64,000 nt of DNA from Dongia deserti (GTDB lineage: Bacteria > Pseudomonadota > Alphaproteobacteria > Dongiales > Dongiaceae): assembly GCF_003574735.1 (NCBI RefSeq), contig NZ_QORW01000020.1:1-64000 (forward strand), in the 5' to 3' direction. Under the pieces are notes generated by a model. It searched no databases and was not told the DNA's origin. It worked only from the letters and a program-made list of their open reading frames with translations. Numbering within the stretch: the stretch's first letter is position 1; each line of letters begins with the position of its first letter. Positions 1 through 8,168 of the stretch are shown piece after piece. A program made the position numbers and the translations under genes.

Positions 1-33
1 CCGCCTGCGCGCCAAGCGATGAAACAGCGCAGG

Positions 34-60
34 ACCTGAGGGGCTGCTTACACCTCAGGT
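34..60. repeat. Short hairpin overlapping the capsid stop codon
   Basis: Arms of 8 bases (acctgagg at 34-41, cctcaggt at 53-60) with an 11-base loop. It overlaps the capsid stop codon and has no T-run, so it may be an attenuating or mRNA-end structure rather than a full intrinsic terminator. Confidence 0.3.
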
Positions 61-1290
61 GATGAGGCCGAAGTCGCCGTACACGAACGCTTCCGGACGA
101 TACGTCGCGAGAACAACCCTCTCCTCGGCACGCACGGTGACGAGGTTCTTCACGAAGTTGTCGCGATCTTCGGTGCTGATCTCGACCGCGGTCTCTTCGC
201 GCTCGAATAGCTCGCAGCCGATGGCGAACTGCCCGACCAAGAACTTGTCGCGCTCCATTGCCGTGCTCAAAGCGACAGGCTTCTTGAACAGCATCGGCTC
301 CGCGGTGGAGAGGGGACCGCCAGGAATCAAATAGTGCCCGTCCTCGGCCTTCTCCTGGAGGATCAGCTGCCAGTCCGTCGGATGCATGACGATGCCGTCC
401 GGCTCATGGTCGATCGCCCGGAGCTGAGCGATCGCCGCGCCGATGAAGTCGGCCTTGCTCGTCAAGCTGAGGCCGGTCGGCGCGGCGAACGCCGTCGCGT
501 CGATCGTCAGGCCCGACAGGTTCTGTCCCGTGCCGCTCCCGAAGAGAAGCTGCTGGTCCTCCTTGAGCTGGACGCCATATCGCATGCGGCCATCGAGGAA
601 GCTTTGCAGCCGGGGCTCGTCGGCGAGGATTTGCTTCGACGCTCGCGTTGTGTGCGCGATGGTGATGGGCGTCGCGGTCACCAGCTCGAACGTGAGCGTG
701 GACTCCGGCTTCTCCTCGCCCTCGGTCACCGGCCTGGCGTTGTTGGTGAAGCCGGTTTCGCGATTGTACTCGACTGTGCCCGAGCCCGTGGTAGTGACCG
801 TCATGAGATCGCGGACGCGGACCGCACGCTGCGCCGGGCCGATGATCTCCGGCCGATGATCGCGCGCGCCGCTGGGGCCGTTCGGCGGGCCCGAGAGGAT
901 CGCCGCGTTGACCGTGAAGCGCGACCGGCCGTGAGCCTCGCAGCCCTTCGCCGCATTGCGCAACACGTCCGGCTCGAGCGCAGCAACGAACGAGCTGGCG
1001 GACGCGCCGCCATACCTCAGGCGGGCGAGGACGCCGGTACGCGCGGCGACCACCTTCTCGAGATCTTCGTTGCGGGTCTGGAGCGCGTCGATTCTGTCTT
1101 CGAGCTTCTCGATCTTCTTGGCCTGCTCATCGCCGACGCGCGTGAGTTCCACCTTCACCTCCGCCAGCGTGCGCATGAGGCGCGCGCTAACGTCACCCTC
1201 ATCGTTGCGCACGGTGCCGATGACGCCGGCCGGACGGTCCGCAGCGCAAAGCACGGCAAGCGATACCGCTGGTAGTCTGGATTTACTCAT
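55..1290 (-). CDS. HK97-fold phage major capsid protein
   Basis: Structural protein that builds the icosahedral head of a tailed phage or a capsid-forming satellite. The 411-residue product has a heptad-rich charged segment at about residues 35-75 (VKVELTRVGDEQAKKIEKLE), like the scaffolding delta region of HK97 gp5. A typical HK97-family shell follows, with a VTEGEEKPES segment and a C-terminal part carrying GDF. Length is normal for the family (about 380-420). I place the start at 1290 because a GAGG ribosome-binding site lies about 10 bases upstream; longer in-frame starts add low-complexity Arg/Pro sequence. No prohead protease is seen upstream, so maturation may be encoded to the left. 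It is the last gene visible in the leftward element. The assignment as a capsid is secure; whether it belongs to a prophage or a satellite is inference. Confidence 0.87.
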   Translation of the reverse strand: MSKSRLPAVSLAVLCAADRPAGVIGTVRNDEGDVSARLMRTLAEVKVELTRVGDEQAKKIEKLEDRIDALQTRNEDLEKVVAARTGVLARLRYGGASASSFVAALEPDVLRNAAKGCEAHGRSRFTVNAAILSGPPNGPSGARDHRPEIIGPAQRAVRVRDLMTVTTTGSGTVEYNRETGFTNNARPVTEGEEKPESTLTFELVTATPITIAHTTRASKQILADEPRLQSFLDGRMRYGVQLKEDQQLLFGSGTGQNLSGLTIDATAFAAPTGLSLTSKADFIGAAIAQLRAIDHEPDGIVMHPTDWQLILQEKAEDGHYLIPGGPLSTAEPMLFKKPVALSTAMERDKFLVGQFAIGCELFEREETAVEISTEDRDNFVKNLVTVRAEERVVLATYRPEAFVYGDFGLIT

Positions 1291-1539
1291 GGAGATTTGC
1301 CTCTTTTCTGAGGCGGGATCGGAAGGCATCGCGTGCACACCCCAATCGCCGCCGTTGTTACACGGTAGTCTCACGCGCTCATTGCGCGTTCGACCGGTTG
1401 CGACTGGGTGTGGCAGCGCCCGACATGCCACGTGATCCAGGCGAGGCGGGGTTCTCCCGTCTCTAGGCAGCGCCCGGCATGCCCTGTCGCAACCGTCACC
1501 GATTCGCCTCCGTCGCGTCAATGCCGTCGTATAGAGTCG

Positions 1540-1785
1540 TCAATGCCGCACCTGATCGGTCCCGATTGCATCGAACGCGCCGGACTCGATCTTGTCGCCC
1601 AGCTCGCGAAAGCACCGCGCCGCCATCTCCGACCCGACCAGCTGCACCTGGCCGATCGCCGCCGCCGCTGCGAGCTCTCGCATGAGAATCGACGCAGACA
1701 CACCCCGCTTGCCCGCCAGATCGATTGCTGACCTCACGATGAAGATCGCTTGCTTCGCCTGTTCGTCTTCGATGTTCCGATCCAT
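1540..1785 (-). CDS. Small hypothetical phage-element protein (81 aa)
   Basis: I do not recognise a family. The 81-residue product is Ala/Glu-rich and probably all-helical, opening MDRNIEDEQAKQAIFIVRSA and containing MRELAAAAAIGQVQLVGSEM. The start at 1785 follows a strong ribosome-binding site (GGAGG, spacing 6), which supports translation. It lies between the replication genes and the capsid gene in the same direction, with untranslated gaps of about 250-275 bases on each side. By position it could be a regulator or a packaging/morphogenesis accessory, but nothing in the sequence decides this. Confidence 0.55.
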   Translation of the reverse strand: MDRNIEDEQAKQAIFIVRSAIDLAGKRGVSASILMRELAAAAAIGQVQLVGSEMAARCFRELGDKIESGAFDAIGTDQVRH

Positions 1786-1869
1786 GGTCCACCTCCGTGA
1801 TGTTGATCGTTTAGATTCGATGCGCCGGCAAAATAATCGGCGGCGCCGGCGCAGCTCCACCGCACGCTC

Positions 1870-1886
1870 TAGATGCTGCGCATCTA
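1870..1886. promoter_or_regulatory. Perfect inverted repeat, possible operator
   Basis: TAGATGC-TGC-GCATCTA is a perfect 7-bp inverted repeat with a 3-base centre in the noncoding stretch upstream of the 81-aa gene. It has the same AGATRC-N3-GYATCT form as an inverted repeat inside the replication gene at 2843-2857, so both could bind the same element-encoded regulator. Function is inferred only from symmetry and position. Confidence 0.35.
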
Positions 1887-2060
1887 AGCGACTCTGCTGA
1901 CTCGAGTTTTTGAGAGCGGCTCGCGCGGCTGGAACGCAGAGGCCTCGGAAGGCCTCGAAAATCACGTCAGCCGCGAAAAAAATCTGCGCGTGACAGCCCC
2001 ACCGGTCCGGAATCGGCGCGCTCCAGACTTTTGACCCACCCTCCCCCGGCGCGAAGCGCA

Positions 2061-2261
2061 TCATCGGACCCGCCTCACGATCGTGCCGGCGCCGTCCTCG
2101 GCCTTGCGGCACGCGAACTCGTGCCCATACTTGCGCTTGTAGTAATTGGCGTTGCGGGTCGCCGCGTGAATGCCTTGCGGCACATGGAAGGTCTCGCCGA
2201 CCGCGACGGTGCGCCACAGGCTCGGCACTTCAGCTGCGTGCGCGAGGAGATTGGCGCTCAT
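2061..2261 (-). CDS. Small hypothetical protein (66 aa) coupled to replication genes
   Basis: No family recognised. The product is basic, and its C-terminal half (IHAATRNANYYKRKYGHEFA) looks like a nucleic-acid-contacting segment rich in Arg, Lys and Tyr. Its ATG overlaps the stop codon of the preceding gene in an ATGA arrangement at 2258-2261. It is therefore almost certainly the third cistron of a translationally coupled set with the two DnaA-N-like proteins. By context a small DNA-binding replication accessory is plausible, but this is inference. Confidence 0.6.
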   Translation of the reverse strand: MSANLLAHAAEVPSLWRTVAVGETFHVPQGIHAATRNANYYKRKYGHEFACRKAEDGAGTIVRRVR

Positions 2262-2542
2262 GCCGTTGCCCTCGCTGGCCGCACGACGATCTCAACGCGT
2301 TCGCAGCTCGGGCTCTCCCGGCGAAAGCAGTCCAGCAACGCATCGCCGTAGTGATTCGCGATCCAGTCTCGGGCGAAGCGGCCAGCGATCGCGACGCGGA
2401 CAGTCGCGCCGGTGTTGCTCTCGATCCAGGCATCCCGAAACCACGCCCGGAACATCACATCGCCGATGCGCTCCCGGAGGCGGTCGCCAGCAGGACCGAG
2501 CGCGTGCGGCTGTTCGAACTGGACGGCTGCTGTGTCAGTCAT
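2258..2542 (-). CDS. Small DnaA N-terminal-domain-like protein
   Basis: The 94-residue protein consists almost wholly of a module resembling the N-terminal domain of DnaA. It has a first helix (RLRERIGDVMFRAWFRDAWI) with the typical F..WF pair, a beta hairpin (TVRVAIAGRF), then ARDWIANHYGDALLDCF. In DnaA this domain binds DnaB helicase and other DnaA molecules. It has no AAA+ or DNA-binding domain, so it may recruit helicase or compete with host DnaA. It follows the initiator gene with an ATGA overlap (2539-2542), and the initiator's own C-terminus carries the same kind of module. Domain recognition is by eye from pattern, not from a profile search. Confidence 0.6.
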   Translation of the reverse strand: MTDTAAVQFEQPHALGPAGDRLRERIGDVMFRAWFRDAWIESNTGATVRVAIAGRFARDWIANHYGDALLDCFRRESPSCERVEIVVRPARATA

Positions 2543-3516
2543 CTTGGCTTCCTCACTTCGATCTCGAGGCGCGAGATCGCGAAGCCTGCGCGCCTCCAGC
2601 AGGCGATGACGGACTCGGCATAGTCGCGGATGATCCTCTCTCGGACGAACGCAGTGGCGGAGAGCGTCAGCGTTTCCTCATCGACGCGCTCGAACTTGAC
2701 GTCACGGAACCAGGTGGCGAAGGCGTGCTCGTTCTTCCTGCCGAGCATTTCCGCGAGCAGAGCGCCGGCATGGCCAAGATGGTTCCCTTGCCCTGGCGCA
2801 GCATCGGCCGCGCCCTCGCGCGCGCGCTCGCGTGCAGGGTTCAGATACGAAGTATCTGTAAGGGTAGGGAGGCCACCCGTGGCCTCCATTGCGGCCGGAT
2901 TTGGCCTCCTATCCTCGCCCAATGGAGGCCACCCGTGGCCTCCATTGGGGGGTTTATGGAGGCCACCCGTGGCCTCCATTGGAGGAGGCAAAGGACGCAC
3001 GCCGGTGCGTCCTTCCGACCCGGAAAGGACGCACGCCGGTGCATCCTTTCCCCGGCGAATGCGTGCATGCTCATGCACGCTTTTCCATGCCTCGTCGATG
3101 CGATCAGCGAGACGCCGGCCGGCGTTGGTCGCGGCCACCTGGCACCGCTCGAAGGCCGGCAGGTAGACGTTCGCAACGCCCTTTCCGCCATAGACGCGCC
3201 GGCCGTCGGCGCGCTGACCGAGATCGCGGCGCTGCACGATGAGATAGCCGCGGGCCTCGAGCTCGGCGATGGCGCGGCGCACGGTGCGGAGGCCAGCCCG
3301 CATCGCGGCAGCGATCGATTCCTGCCGCATGAACGTATCGCCCCTGTGCCGGTTGAAATGCGAGCCGATGATGCATCCGACTCGCAATGCTTTATCCGAG
3401 AGATCGGGATCGAGCGCCATCGCGTCGGTCCACTCCATGCGAAGCTGCTTAGGGATCAGGATCAGCTCGCCACCTGGTCGAGTGCTACCGGCCGATCGGC
3501 GGGCGAGTCGCGTCAT
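2539..3516 (-). CDS. Phage-type replication initiator (winged HTH plus DnaA-N-like C-terminus)
   Basis: The 325-residue protein has three parts. Residues about 20-140 form a helix-turn-helix region of the phage replication-protein-O type (SIAAAMRAGLRTVRRAIAEL is the recognition part, with a wing after RGYLIVQRR). Residues about 150-235 are a Pro/Gly-rich linker translated from an array of palindromic DNA. Residues about 245-325 form a DnaA-N-like helicase-loading module (HAFATWFRDVKFERV, then FVRERIIRDYAESVI). The plan resembles lambda O: an origin-binding N-terminus, an origin inside the gene, and a C-terminus that recruits helicase. The start lacks a strong ribosome-binding site and could lie a few codons further in. 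It is translationally coupled to the next gene. Confidence 0.72.
   Translation of the reverse strand: MTRLARRSAGSTRPGGELILIPKQLRMEWTDAMALDPDLSDKALRVGCIIGSHFNRHRGDTFMRQESIAAAMRAGLRTVRRAIAELEARGYLIVQRRDLGQRADGRRVYGGKGVANVYLPAFERCQVAATNAGRRLADRIDEAWKSVHEHARIRRGKDAPACVLSGSEGRTGVRPLPPPMEATGGLHKPPNGGHGWPPLGEDRRPNPAAMEATGGLPTLTDTSYLNPARERAREGAADAAPGQGNHLGHAGALLAEMLGRKNEHAFATWFRDVKFERVDEETLTLSATAFVRERIIRDYAESVIACWRRAGFAISRLEIEVRKPR
2843..3080. repeat. Array of palindromes inside the initiator gene, probable replication origin
   Basis: Three copies of the 20-mer ggaggccacccgtggcctcc (arms of 9 bp, centre CC) lie at 2868-2887, 2924-2943 and 2958-2977. Two copies of a second palindrome with arms aaggacgcac lie at 2991-3014 and 3025-3048. 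Single palindromes lie at 2843-2857 (AGATAC-GAA-GTATCT) and 3061-3080 (GCGTGCAT-GCTC-ATGCACGC). The 20-mers are read in two different frames by the gene (MEATGGLH against NGGHGWPPL), as are the second palindromes (KDAPACVL against GRTGVRPL). The conservation is thus of DNA, not peptide. This is what iterons in an intragenic phage origin look like. Confidence 0.6.
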
Positions 3517-3540
3517 GGTGAAACTCGATCGAAGCCACCA

Positions 3541-3744
3541 TCACGCCGCGCGGGCCGCGCGCGCGGCGGCGCGCTGGTCCAGCCATTCCTTCACTTCGGC
3601 CTCGATGTAGACGGCAGTGTTGGGGCCGAGCGCCACGGGCCTGGGAAAGCCATGGTCGCGAATCCAGCGGCTCAGCGTCATCCGATTGTTGACGATGCCC
3701 TGCGCTTTGAGGTCGCTGAACTTCAGATAGGTCGGGAGTTGCAT
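3541..3744 (-). CDS. AlpA-family / excisionase-like DNA-binding protein
   Basis: The 67-residue protein is a single MerR-like winged helix of the AlpA/MLD type. The start QLPTYLKFSDL leads into a helix-turn-helix with LSRWIRDHGFPRPVALG, followed by YIEAEVKEWLDQR. In prophages and PICI-type satellites, AlpA proteins activate excision and replication genes or act as Xis. The start at 3744 gives the compact family length; an upstream in-frame start would add unrelated residues. The C-terminus ends in an Ala/Arg repeat. It sits 24 bases before the initiator gene and is read in the same direction, as in the int-alpA-rep order of Gram-negative satellites. Confidence 0.78.
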   Translation of the reverse strand: MQLPTYLKFSDLKAQGIVNNRMTLSRWIRDHGFPRPVALGPNTAVYIEAEVKEWLDQRAAARAARAA

Positions 3745-3821
3745 CACGTCGCTCCGGTTCGTTGGACGTGACGCGGAATTATCTACATGGAGCGCGGATA
3801 CGCAAAAGGAAGTTTCGGAAG

Positions 3822-4325
3822 CTATTCGCGCGGTTTCTTTCCGTTGGGCATTTCCGCGAACAGCGGCCACACGTCCGGCGGAACGTCCCACTCACCGGCA
3901 AGCATTCTTTGCCCCTCCGGACCCCGGAGCGGGATGAGAACGGAGTTGCGCGGATACGTTGCGATCGCCTCGGCAAGTGACGTTTTCTCTGTGAACGCGC
4001 GCTCCCTCGGCCGACCCTCGTAGTACCTCTCTGCCTCGGTATGCAGCTTCGCCAGCGACGACGTGCCGTAGCCTGTCACCTCGGCGCCGAAGAGCTTTTT
4101 GGCGAACGCGGCGATGCGGTCGCACGCCGCGGTCTTGTATATGCCGTCACGCCGCATCAAGAATTCGACCGCCGTCCAGACTGCCAGCATATCGCCCCGG
4201 TTGCCCGGCGGATGTCCGCGCCCATTGCCGCTCGCCTTGGCCTTCTCCGTCACGCTCGGGGCACCATAGCGTTCGACAAGCCACGCCAGCGTCTCGAGAT
4301 CATCATCCGTCCAGGGCGCGCTCAC
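3822..4325 (-). CDS. Hypothetical protein coupled to the integrase (167 aa)
   Basis: No family recognised. I place the start at the GTG at 4325, which overlaps the integrase stop codon as GTGA (4322-4325), indicating translational coupling. The product begins VSAPWTDDDLETLAWLVERY, a helix-rich segment reminiscent of a SANT/Myb-like or HTH opening. It has a conserved-looking middle (WTAVEFLMRRDGIYKTAACD) and a proline-rich end. Coupling to the integrase suggests a role in excision, immunity or early regulation, but this is inferred from position alone. Confidence 0.6.
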   Translation of the reverse strand: MSAPWTDDDLETLAWLVERYGAPSVTEKAKASGNGRGHPPGNRGDMLAVWTAVEFLMRRDGIYKTAACDRIAAFAKKLFGAEVTGYGTSSLAKLHTEAERYYEGRPRERAFTEKTSLAEAIATYPRNSVLIPLRGPEGQRMLAGEWDVPPDVWPLFAEMPNGKKPRE

Positions 4326-5914
4326 GACGCCCTCGCCTTCCTGCCGCGCGCACTCCGCGCCTGGTCGATCGGCGTGACGGTCGCCGGCGCCGGCTCGACG
4401 ATGCTCAGCAGCTTGTGGGCCCATTGCTGCAGCGCGTCCCGCTTCTCGTCCTGATACTCATGCCAGTCGTAGTTTTTTTCGACACCCTTCCGGGAGTGCG
4501 AGATTACCCGCTCGCGCACGTGCTGTTCGACCTTCAACCCGGATAGCCGCGTCCGCACCGTGCGGCGGAGATCGTGAAACTCCCAATGCGTCGGCCCCCA
4601 CGCCCACACGTCGGATGGCGCGGCCGATCCAAACGCGGTCAGAATGCGCGCCTCAGCCTGTTTTGGCGACGTGATCTCAGTCACGCGGCAATAGCCCCAA
4701 CTCTCGCCGTGCCTAATGCCGACGATGCGGCCAACATCGGTTTCCTTGAACGGAGCGTGCCCCGTTGCGACCAGCTTCACGGTCTTGCCCTTGGCCGCGC
4801 GCTGCGTCGTGATGGAGACGGCCAGGCTTTGCCCAGGACGGGCCCTAGCCTCGCTCTCGTGCCGCCGCATCATGAGAACATCGAGCCTGTCCTTCATCTT
4901 GGAAAAGCCGTCTACGTGCTTCTCGCCATCTGTCGTGGTAAAGACGAAATCGCCTCCCTCGCCGGCCGTAATGCTGCGGAACAGATCGGCCGCGGCCGGA
5001 ACTAGCGGAACGATGTGGCCGGCTTCCATTTTCATGCGCTCCGGCGGGATCACGAGCGACGGCTCGGCCTTCGGATTGTCACGCCAGCCGGCGGGCTGGA
5101 TCTCCGGCCAGGACGCCTCGCCGATTTCGTCCCTGCGCTGCCCGGTCAAGACCAGAAGGCGCACCAGCGGGGCGTAGGGCTGCCCGAGCTCGCCGGCCGC
5201 ATGCCATACGTCGGACAACTCAGCATCGCTCAGGACGCGGTCGCGGGGCTTCCTGCGGCCGATCAGAGTCTTTGCGTCGATCGCCTTCGCGGGGTTGAAG
5301 CCTTCTTTCAGCCCATAGCCGCGGCCCGGCTGCGCCGCCCATTTGAACAAGCCGGAAATCCAGATCAAGGAATTGTGGGCGTGGTAGGGCGCCTTGCGAT
5401 CCACGATGGCCAAGATCGCGGCGCCGATGTCGTCCGACGTGATGTCCGTTATGGGCCTGTCGCTCCATCGCTTGCCCATCTCGCCCTGCAGGACCGACTT
5501 CGCCTCGCCGGCCTTCGCCAGCTTCGACGCGCGGCGCTGCAGATAGTCGACTACCACCACGGCCCAGGTGTTCGCCTTGCGCTCCGCCTCTTCGGCCCTC
5601 TTCCGCTCTTCCTCGGCGCGTTGGCGGGCCTCTTGTTCCCTCGGGTCAATCCCGCGCTGGATCAGCTCCAGCCATGCCCGGGCCTTGTCCCTGGCATCGG
5701 CCAGCGTGATCGCCCCGACTTCGCCAAGGGAGCGCGGCGTCGGGTGTTTCGGATTGAGGGGGAAGCGCGCCACCAGCACGTAGCTCTTCGAGCCGGCGTC
5801 TGTGACCCTGAGCCACATGCCCGGCACCACGCCGTCAGGAAGCATCAGGCGCTTTCCCTTTGGCGCCTTCAACGATGAGTTGACCTTGCGATCGGTGAGA
5901 GCATGTTTGCCCAT
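4322..5914 (-). CDS. int: Tyrosine-recombinase phage integrase (DUF4102 type)
   Basis: Site-specific recombinase that inserts and excises the element. The 530-residue product has an N-terminal DUF4102 arm-binding domain (LTDRKVNSSLKAP, then MWLRVTDAGSKSYVL), a SAM-like core-binding domain around residues 110-215, and a catalytic domain. The catalytic domain has the first Arg in TGQRRDEIGEASW, the HDLRRT box, a later His in ISHSRKGVEKNYDWHEY and the nucleophilic Tyr. An insertion of roughly 100 residues between the first Arg and the HDLRRT box makes it longer than the usual 400. The start at 5914 follows GAGGAG. It lies about 180 bases from the tRNA-Asn fragment, the normal position for an integrase beside its attachment site. 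Confidence 0.9.
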   Translation of the reverse strand: MGKHALTDRKVNSSLKAPKGKRLMLPDGVVPGMWLRVTDAGSKSYVLVARFPLNPKHPTPRSLGEVGAITLADARDKARAWLELIQRGIDPREQEARQRAEEERKRAEEAERKANTWAVVVVDYLQRRASKLAKAGEAKSVLQGEMGKRWSDRPITDITSDDIGAAILAIVDRKAPYHAHNSLIWISGLFKWAAQPGRGYGLKEGFNPAKAIDAKTLIGRRKPRDRVLSDAELSDVWHAAGELGQPYAPLVRLLVLTGQRRDEIGEASWPEIQPAGWRDNPKAEPSLVIPPERMKMEAGHIVPLVPAAADLFRSITAGEGGDFVFTTTDGEKHVDGFSKMKDRLDVLMMRRHESEARARPGQSLAVSITTQRAAKGKTVKLVATGHAPFKETDVGRIVGIRHGESWGYCRVTEITSPKQAEARILTAFGSAAPSDVWAWGPTHWEFHDLRRTVRTRLSGLKVEQHVRERVISHSRKGVEKNYDWHEYQDEKRDALQQWAHKLLSIVEPAPATVTPIDQARSARGRKARAS

Positions 5915-6095
5915 GCCGGTTGCTCCTCTAAGGACACTCGGGACAACAAGGACAACGCCGGGACAACAAAATGAGCCGTTAGCCGCTGTTATTCCCTGAT
6001 TTCGAGTGTTGTCGAGAAACGGGCCAATAGCAATGACTTTCCGCGATTCTGCGGGCTCGACTGTGATGCGATGTTGTCCGGAATGCTTTGTGTCC

Positions 6096-6146
6096 GACCG
6101 GCTGTTAACCGGTTGGTCGCTGGTTCGAATCCGGCCCGGGGAGCCA
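6096..6146 (+). other. 3' fragment of tRNA-Asn(GTT), putative attR
   Basis: The sequence carries the anticodon stem-loop ACCGG-CTGTTAA-CCGGT with anticodon GTT, a variable region, a T arm (GCTGG-TTCGAAT-CCGGC), the 3' acceptor strand and an encoded CCA at 6144-6146. The 5' acceptor strand and D arm are missing upstream, so this is not a functional tRNA gene. A 3' tRNA remnant beside an integrase is the typical scar of integration. Its orientation means phage DNA lies to the left and host DNA to the right. The complete tRNA-Asn should lie at the left end of the element, outside this window. Confidence 0.8.
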
Positions 6147-6217
6147 GTTTTGAACGGGTCGGAAGCCCATGGTTTCCGACCCGTCTTCATTTGATCCGGC
6201 CAATGCCTGCGCTCCCT

Positions 6218-7999
6218 TTACCGGGCCAGCAGCGGCACCTTTTGGCGCCGTACGGCGGTCGGTCCCAGGATCTGCGGCGTTTGATCGTACTCGAGCTCGG
6301 CGAGTTGCGCCCTGGTCTTGGCGACGAGCCGCTCGAAGCTGATTGACCGTTTGGCTGCGTTCTCGCGCCGCAGGATGTTGGCCAGCGAAAACGTGAAGGC
6401 GCCGTAGCTGACAGCGCCATGCCGGTACTCGTAGGACAACTGCTCCTCGCCGCAGGCCTCGATGATCAGCGGCAGATAGGGCCCGATCGGCTGCTTCCGC
6501 CTCCGCCCCTTCTTCAGCCGATCATACTCCCTGGCAGAGAGGCCGCGCAGCATGGCCGCCCGGCCCAGGCGCTTGGTCGCGCCGTTGTGGCCGAAATACT
6601 CGATGGCTGTTTCCTTCTGGCGCGTGAACGTCTCGTTGATCCGGTTGAAGTCCCGGCTCACCCACATCTGGCTCTTGATGTCCCATTTCAGTTCGCGGTG
6701 GCGGATATCGTCAGGCGGCGTCAATCCGCGCGGCCGATGGGCGCCATCCCGATGAATGCCACCGGAATGGCAGCAATCGAAAATCATGATCAGGCGGCAT
6801 TCATAGGGCAGTTGGCTATAGAGGCCGTATATCTGGTCGTCGGAAATCGCCTTCTCTGGCGTCCAGTCGAAATCCCAGGGTACCAGTACCTCGACCTGAT
6901 GGTCCGGCTCGAAGTCCTCGCCATATTGCGGAATCTTGGCGCCGTGACCGCTGTAGTAGAAGATGAGTTCGTCGCCCGGTTTCGGGTCGTCGAGCAGCCA
7001 TTTCAGGCGATCGAGAATGCCTTTGGCCGTCGCCCGCTCGTCAAGGCACGTCCGGATCGCTTCCGGCGGCACGCCGCATTCCTGCAGCACCGAGCTCATC
7101 GTGAAAACGTCATTGACGCAGCCTTCGAGACGATCGGGTTCGTTCGGATAGTTGTTGATGCCGATCAGCAGCGCTTTCTGCGTCTTGCGGCGGGGTGCCG
7201 GTGCGCCACGGGCCAATGTCCTCGGCATCGCTCCGATGACTCTCGCGCCTGTCGCTTCGGCGGAGATCGGCCGCCAAACGTTCGCGATCGTCGCCGGATG
7301 GCTGAGGTAGCGTTCGGCCGTGTGATCGGCGAAACCCGCGTCGTCGAACCGCGTATCCGTCTGACGGAAATTCGCCCCTTCCCATAGGCGGATCGGCGCC
7401 GTGAAGACGTCGTCCTCCTCATTATAGAGATGATGCCAGAAATCGACATCGAGCGGCTGGATACGGCCGTTGGTGATATTGCGTACGACAAAGGGGTTGC
7501 CGATCTGCGATCCCAGCGTGACGTATTTCGCGCGTTTCAGAACGTCGCGGATCTTGCCTTCCTGCGCATCGTCATGGCTGAAAGCGTCGTACGTGATCAA
7601 CGAGCCCAGGCTGTGCGCCAGAATGATATCGGGCTCGTTCTGGCGTACGGCATCCAGGATCCGTTGCCGGCTCGCGCGCTTGAAACCCTCCTCCTCGACC
7701 CAAGCGACGACGTAGCCGGCCGTCCACTGGATCTTGTCTGCGACGTCGGTGAGAACACCGCGCTTGCGGCGACTGATCGATGCAACCCCGCTGGCCGTCA
7801 GCTTCCAGAATGCCCGGGCACATTTCCAGGCTGTCAGCTTCGTCCTCTCGAAAATGTCGTCATAGGTGACGTACTCGCACACGGGTACAACACCTCCCGG
7901 GAAACTCTGCTTAAGCGCCGCGGTCCACCTTTCCTTCCAGTCGGACGTGCGATGGTCGCCAAGACCATGAACTCCCAGAACCCTCAATGACTTTGGCAA
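6218..7999 (-). CDS. Alpha/beta-hydrolase fused to a caspase-like (C14) peptidase domain
   Basis: The 593-residue protein joins two putative effector domains. Residues about 1-250 look like an alpha/beta-hydrolase: VHGLGDH near the N-terminus, a nucleophile elbow AHSLGS with Ser about 130, and candidate Asp and His before residue 230. Residues about 270-593 are a caspase/metacaspase-like domain. It opens ALLIGINNYP and has YYSGHG with catalytic His about 352 and DCCHSGG with catalytic Cys about 410. Caspase-like proteins cleave after Arg/Lys and often act in stress-induced cell death or phage defence. I favour the TTG start at 7999 because a GGGAGG site lies just upstream; an ATG at 8158 would run through the shared promoter region. 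It stands alone, read toward the attachment scar 72 bases away. The substrate of either domain is unknown. Confidence 0.8.
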   Translation of the reverse strand: MPKSLRVLGVHGLGDHRTSDWKERWTAALKQSFPGGVVPVCEYVTYDDIFERTKLTAWKCARAFWKLTASGVASISRRKRGVLTDVADKIQWTAGYVVAWVEEEGFKRASRQRILDAVRQNEPDIILAHSLGSLITYDAFSHDDAQEGKIRDVLKRAKYVTLGSQIGNPFVVRNITNGRIQPLDVDFWHHLYNEEDDVFTAPIRLWEGANFRQTDTRFDDAGFADHTAERYLSHPATIANVWRPISAEATGARVIGAMPRTLARGAPAPRRKTQKALLIGINNYPNEPDRLEGCVNDVFTMSSVLQECGVPPEAIRTCLDERATAKGILDRLKWLLDDPKPGDELIFYYSGHGAKIPQYGEDFEPDHQVEVLVPWDFDWTPEKAISDDQIYGLYSQLPYECRLIMIFDCCHSGGIHRDGAHRPRGLTPPDDIRHRELKWDIKSQMWVSRDFNRINETFTRQKETAIEYFGHNGATKRLGRAAMLRGLSAREYDRLKKGRRRKQPIGPYLPLIIEACGEEQLSYEYRHGAVSYGAFTFSLANILRRENAAKRSISFERLVAKTRAQLAELEYDQTPQILGPTAVRRQKVPLLAR

Positions 8000-8168
8000 G
8001 CCACCCTCCCCCCGTTTTTCAGGTCGAGTAACTATATCGCAGGTTGCAAATCCCGGCGACAACAAACGCGTTTCTCCCACTGCGAAGACACCGGGCGCAC
8101 GCCGCAGCCGGAGGAACGCGGCGACGAATGGGCCAAATTTTTGATTTGGCGGGCCCAACGCGAGCGCC

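Follow-up and report, generated by a model that had tools for sequence, protein, structure and literature searches.

Two described kinds of phage satellite come closest to the element reported here. Capsid-forming phage-inducible chromosomal islands (cf-PICIs), about 14 kb in size on average, have been listed mainly from enterobacteria and Firmicutes (PMC10803314), and their capsids fall into three separate clades (PMC11389934). Phage-inducible chromosomal minimalist islands (PICMIs), satellites of the Vibrionaceae, carry an integrase gene, a gene that overlaps it (iolg), alpA and a replication gene, in that order; they have a DUF3987/DUF5906 primase, integrate at fis and contain no capsid gene (PMC10803314). 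We analysed a window of 64,000 nucleotides (bases 1–64000 of contig C13, NZ_QORW01000020.1) from the 6.13 Mb, 51-contig genome of the alphaproteobacterium Dongia deserti, whose left end holds an integrative element with a capsid gene. We regard it as a probable element of the phage-satellite type, small, integrating at a specific site and supplied with its own HK97 capsid, because its left module has the PICMI order, its readable layout is that of a complete element in another genome of the class (G767) and no other head genes are visible.

Eight genes, all read leftward (minus strand), lie between base 1 of the window, which is a contig end, and a 55 bp attachment (att) core at 6097–6151. Starting from the core, they encode a tyrosine integrase of 530 amino acids (aa) with an Arm-DNA-bind_3 N-terminus (4322–5914; PF13356, 1e-15; phrog_1, 1e-37), a 167 aa protein without a match in family searches (3822–4325), an AlpA-family regulator/excisionase of 67 aa (3541–3744; PF05930, 4e-7; phrog_66, 2e-5), a replication initiator (Rep) of 325 aa with an HTH_36 winged helix and a C-terminal DnaA_N domain (2539–3516; PF13730, 1e-9; PF11638, 2e-6; phrog_270, 3e-6), a stand-alone DnaA domain I (DnaA_N) protein of 94 aa (2258–2542; PF11638, 5e-10), two small open reading frames (ORFs) of 66 aa (2061–2261) and 81 aa (1540–1785; no match in the family search) and an HK97-type major capsid protein of 411 aa with a helical, scaffold-like N-terminal region (55–1290; PF05065, 7e-46; TIGR01554, 5e-40). 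The capsid start was taken at the ATG; the 488 aa version of this ORF begins at a distant upstream TTG. The gene for the 167 aa protein starts within the integrase stop (a 4 nt GTGA overlap), and by their coordinates rep, the DnaA_N gene and the 66 aa gene follow one another with successive 4 nt overlaps, the pattern of a translationally coupled operon. This order and the coupled neighbour of the integrase had been proposed in a preliminary description made from the window; both are present, with gene limits now refined and families matched by profile. Since base 1 of the window is also base 1 of C13, the element is truncated by the contig end just beyond the capsid stop codon, and two stem-loops lie there directly after the stop (1–66, minus strand; −27.6 kcal/mol, z −2.1).

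The int, GTGA-overlapping gene, alpA and replication gene of the window element stand in the PICMI order, with Rep (HTH_36/DnaA_N) in place of the primase; the element differs from PICMIs further in its tRNA-Asn site and in carrying a capsid. Relatives were drawn from genomes placed in the same class as the window. The G767 element (L214:6235-16218) is complete, spans 9.93 kb of a closed chromosome and ends at an intact tRNA-Lys gene; we know of no earlier description of it. Its genes run, leftward, int, an ATGA-overlapping gene, AlpA, an AAA_25 RepA, an HK97 capsid, a tail assembly chaperone (TAC), a tape measure and a gp10-like gene, and genes for a portal, terminase, protease or lysis were not found in it. 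It therefore shares with the window element the leftward series of integrase, 4 nt overlapping gene, AlpA, replication protein and HK97 capsid, as well as an intact tRNA gene at the far end. It differs in having an AAA_25 RepA instead of an HTH_36/DnaA_N Rep, in bearing TAC, tape-measure and gp10-like tail genes, and in its capsid, which groups with cf-PICI-like capsids and lacks the cross-link triad described below. The core of int-overlapping gene, AlpA and Rep was absent from the full-prophage stretches examined and present in this compact element. The two integrases are 30% identical; in that of the window (4322–5914), the interval from the arginine box to the HxxR box is about 95 residues longer than in that of G767.

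The att core (plus strand) matches the 3′ part of an intact tRNA-Asn gene, which bears an exact copy of it at C25:37313-37367, in the correct orientation and 3.7 kb from the end of contig C25. Of the tRNA-Asn scar previously placed at 6075–6146, the derivation from tRNA-Asn holds, although just the 3′ half (the 55 bp core) is there; the intact tRNA-Asn expected further to the left has likewise been located, at the other end of the element on C25, but the middle is unreadable. A heptamer search further identified candidate integrase arm sites, four GGACAAC repeats at 5940–6079 (direct at 5941, 5950 and 5961, inverted at 6073). On C13, four copies are thus no more than about 160 bp from the core, and on C25 two are found no more than about 75 bp away from it, against a background density of 0.11 per kb in a 400 kb sample of the same genome. 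We read these heptamers as putative arm sites of one integrase, and their presence at both ends ties the C13 and C25 ends together independently of the core. The 3.7 kb of the element on C25 encodes, leftward like the C13 genes, a CspA-like protein (with a stem-loop and U-run just upstream of its gene), an adhesin-like protein of 693 aa that combines a LamG domain with an NHL-like stretch, a helix-turn-helix (HTH) protein and one small ORF. Structure prediction of the LamG protein without an alignment gave no usable fold (pLDDT 32), and homologue searches returned almost no close relatives of this protein, of Rep or of the 167 aa protein.

The capsid protein is about 41–43% identical over its folded part to the D3, phiXacJX1 and HK97 structures, its AlphaFold model matches D3 and HK97 in Foldseek with E-values of 1e-33 to 1e-30, and the HK97 cross-link triad is kept in the alignment (K194, N382 and E389). 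Judged from sequence and model, it is a genuine HK97-type capsid with fold and triad intact. A weak match to an NCBIfam family-3 encapsulin, together with the lack of visible packaging genes, could suggest a domesticated, encapsulin-like shell. We give this idea hardly any credence: the match scores 59.9 bits against a cut-off of 180, for which an encapsulin identity was rejected, the HK97 capsid match is much stronger and comes with the scaffold-like region and the triad, and the gene is part of an integrative element bounded by att sites. HK97/D3-type and Mesorhizobium P1-like siphophages have capsids about 42–43% identical to that of the window, also with the triad; unlike them, the readable element has no terminase–portal–protease genes upstream of the capsid and has a satellite-type left module. 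One contig scan with the capsid as query gave two distant matches only. As a separate observation, an orphan piece of a capsid gene in G196 (L137:10001-10414), corresponding to the C-terminal part, is 53% identical to the window capsid over 78 aa; it lies in an otherwise chromosomal setting and its ORF begins in an apparent tRNA remnant.

What lies between the two ends can be bounded from the rest of the assembly. No overlap was found between the C25 end and the C13 start, or between either of them and any contig searched. The portal (PF04860) and TerL (PF03354) profiles had no match in the readable contigs of the genome, and reference proteins for terminase, portal, protease, connector and tail, searched against contig ends and small contigs, matched nothing but the tape measures encoded by two Mu-like prophages (C24 and C33) and, weakly, a protease-like sequence 13 kb inside C15 that we attribute to a host gene. 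Nine contigs of 1.0–2.9 kb read as N only, and their sum of 15.9 kb sets an upper bound on the gap. By this argument the element has a length of 9.8 kb or more, with an upper limit of about 26 kb that holds if no further sequence is concealed in collapsed repeats or in contigs shorter than 1 kb; the 12–18 kb predicted beforehand falls within these bounds, of which the lower is the length read. No terminase, portal, tail-shaft or lysis gene was recognised in that 9.8 kb. The earlier claim that tail and lysis genes are lacking on this side accordingly stands for the readable parts, the contig end having limited it to about 6 kb, while the portal, protease, connector and terminase genes it predicted are found nowhere in the readable genome, their expected location being missing from the assembly.

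These genes could all be inside the unassembled gap, which would make the element a canonical cf-PICI. Its integrase and AlpA (PF13356/phrog_1 and PF05930), its replication gene in a leftward early block, its own HK97 capsid placed after int–alpA–rep and the lack of a tail-shaft or lysis gene in the readable parts are all cf-PICI-like, the gap of up to about 16 kb would be enough for a 6 kb packaging module, and such elements do occur in the class: G279 has one of 14.8 kb with a 48 bp att repeat and the canonical layout (L167:5265-20000 and L256:1-4114), with AlpA, rep, portal, protease–capsid fusion, connectors, HNH, TerS and TerL. Yet no trace of a packaging module (protease, portal, connector or terminase) appears in the readable contigs, the window capsid lies outside the clade formed by the cf-PICI-like elements sampled from the class and has the K/N/E triad that their capsids lack, and the sequence immediately beyond the capsid stop is structured, with stem-loops. 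We regard this version as rather doubtful; it is a sub-case of the satellite-type reading, so that the confidence placed in the two overlaps. Pieces like the G279 element were also seen in G110 (L168) and G276 (L170).

Alternatively, a complete temperate phage might have lost its middle in the assembly, as would fit a capsid and a fibre-like protein on opposite sides of the gap and a phage-type Rep with internal repeats. We hold this to be very unlikely. An assembly of this kind should normally recover a unique stretch of 25–50 kb, in contigs above 3 kb, which disfavours a prophage of 35–60 kb; in the contigs searched, terminase, portal and tail genes occur only in the two Mu-like prophages, and the N-only contigs (1–3 kb) amount to just 15.9 kb. 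Indeed, the full 35–60 kb prophage that the preliminary description had named as the outcome contrary to its proposal was not found, the contigs holding no phage modules for it and the size bound being about 26 kb. The tail contigs C34–C36 were considered as the missing middle and set aside in favour of the Mu-like prophages: C34 overlaps the end of the C33 Mu-like prophage by 90 bp, C36 is 84–87% identical to C34, and C35 (J-like and fibre genes), which has no such overlap, was placed with them on its content. The two resident Mu-like prophages (C24 start, C33 end, C34, C36 and C35) carry siphovirus-type tail genes, their tail parts being 84–87% identical, and are possible tail donors.

Several points weigh against a satellite. 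The assembly does not reach across from C25 to C13, and helper phage and particles are both hypothetical. An adhesin-like LamG protein at the left end is unexpected in a cf-PICI, and its first 120 aa match a protein adjoining the portal gene of Roseobacter phage CRP-6. In a tree of 38 capsids, where cf-PICIs were represented by the cf-PICI-like elements of the class and not by the published clades from enterobacteria and Gram-positives, a split with 100/100 support places the window capsid, on a long branch, with the phages and apart from those elements, and many closer capsid relatives sit in full prophages. Finally, an element of similar size in G291, 10.5 kb long and bounded by an exact 17 bp repeat at tRNA-Ser, looks from its sequence like a cut-down prophage: it keeps a protease, capsid and tape measure without terminase or portal, its capsid is a long branch nested in the full-prophage clade and its tape measure shares 42% identity with the one in a full prophage. 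A tRNA-Trp call by ARAGORN (L134:8453-8539) also lies inside this att-bounded element.

Together, the grouping of the capsid with full phages, the resemblance of the LamG/NHL protein to phage fibre-region proteins and the G291 case speak for a reduced, decaying prophage, in which terminase, portal and tail have been lost by deletion and the capsid, Rep, integrase and fibre are left by chance. This is the main rival, and a serious one, though we consider it unlikely. All readable genes of the element are open, with several 4 nt overlaps as in a working operon, the capsid has kept its cross-link triad, and the int-overlapping gene–AlpA–Rep core was seen in G767 and not in the full-prophage stretches examined. 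Of the earlier choice between a satellite and a reduced prophage, we thus retain the satellite-type element, on the grounds of small size, this core, its own capsid and the complete satellite-like relatives in the class; its identification as a cf-PICI is weakened by the packaging genes not found, the capsid among phage capsids and the adhesin-like protein at the left end.

The replication gene contains a probable origin. Six palindromes, one of them imperfect, form an array at 2868–3080 (centres 2877.5, 2933.5, 2967.5, 3002.5, about 3037, imperfect, and 3070.5); five of them recur every 34 bp or so, which is out of step with the reading frame. Five perfect-arm palindromes were observed, whereas 2000 synonymous shuffles of rep gave 0.5 on average and never more than 4. 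The array would be an iteron origin within rep, a position comparable to that of the lambda origin, which lies inside gene O. Repeats 33 bp apart are present in the G291 Rep, and the spacing of about 34 bp was not seen in the Reps of the full prophages examined. DnaA domain I is known to contact the helicase, and we therefore propose a helicase-recruitment step. In the satellite-type element, the integrase, AlpA (as excisionase or activator) and probably the 167 aa protein would carry out integration and excision at the 55 bp tRNA-Asn core; after excision, Rep could bind the palindromes within its own gene, and the DnaA_N-like domains of Rep and its small partner might recruit the host helicase. 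Under an active helper phage, the capsid protein of the element would form self-cross-linking shells, with the presumed helper providing the tail, lysis and, unless they are encoded in the gap, the portal and terminase.

Other capsid-bearing elements of the class carry other sets of virion genes. A family of about 10–10.5 kb at tRNA-Thr, in G678 (L216:3454-14028), G847 (L247:3561-13698) and G794 (L248:5991-16302), encodes TerL, capsid, protease, portal and integrase; its capsids are only 35–37% identical, yet TerL and portal are 71–85% identical. The G838 element (L251:1046-14816 and L259:16042-20000) measures 17.7 kb, with a 54 bp att repeat at tRNA-Thr, and integrase-bounded elements of the same type were found in G509 (L250/L260) and G464 (L252/L261). 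All three encode TerS/TerL, portal, protease, capsid, connectors, tail terminator, tail tube, TAC and tape measure; genes for a tail tip, a fibre or lysis were not recognised in them, and to go by their gene content they would need an adhesion device and lysis alone from a helper.

The window element and its complete relatives suggest that the class contains a range of satellite-like elements with capsid genes that has gone unreported, from a full head module, through head and tail shaft, to a capsid with one or two tail parts. Such elements had been said to be poorly described in Alphaproteobacteria; complete satellite-like examples with a capsid, one with the same gene order, were found in the class. 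The gradient makes the transition from prophage to satellite testable, together with the question of which virion parts a satellite must own. We may wonder, very tentatively, whether the elements of about 10 kb with an int-overlapping gene–AlpA–Rep core, selected virion parts and no terminase or portal represent a satellite type distinct from cf-PICIs. If so, they would carry a capsid and a tape measure or adhesin and recoat the helper's particle rather than build a whole head, and the window and G767 elements would belong to separate lineages that acquired their capsids independently, the capsid of one being HK97-cross-linking and that of the other not.

Outside the right att site, the window continues directly with a caspase-like ORF of 646 aa (6218–8158), of which no homologue was found near the same tRNA-Asn in eight relatives, so that the right flank of the element may itself be an island. 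No clean empty tRNA-Asn site was found in congeners, in which the left flank and the tRNA are conserved and the right flank is different.

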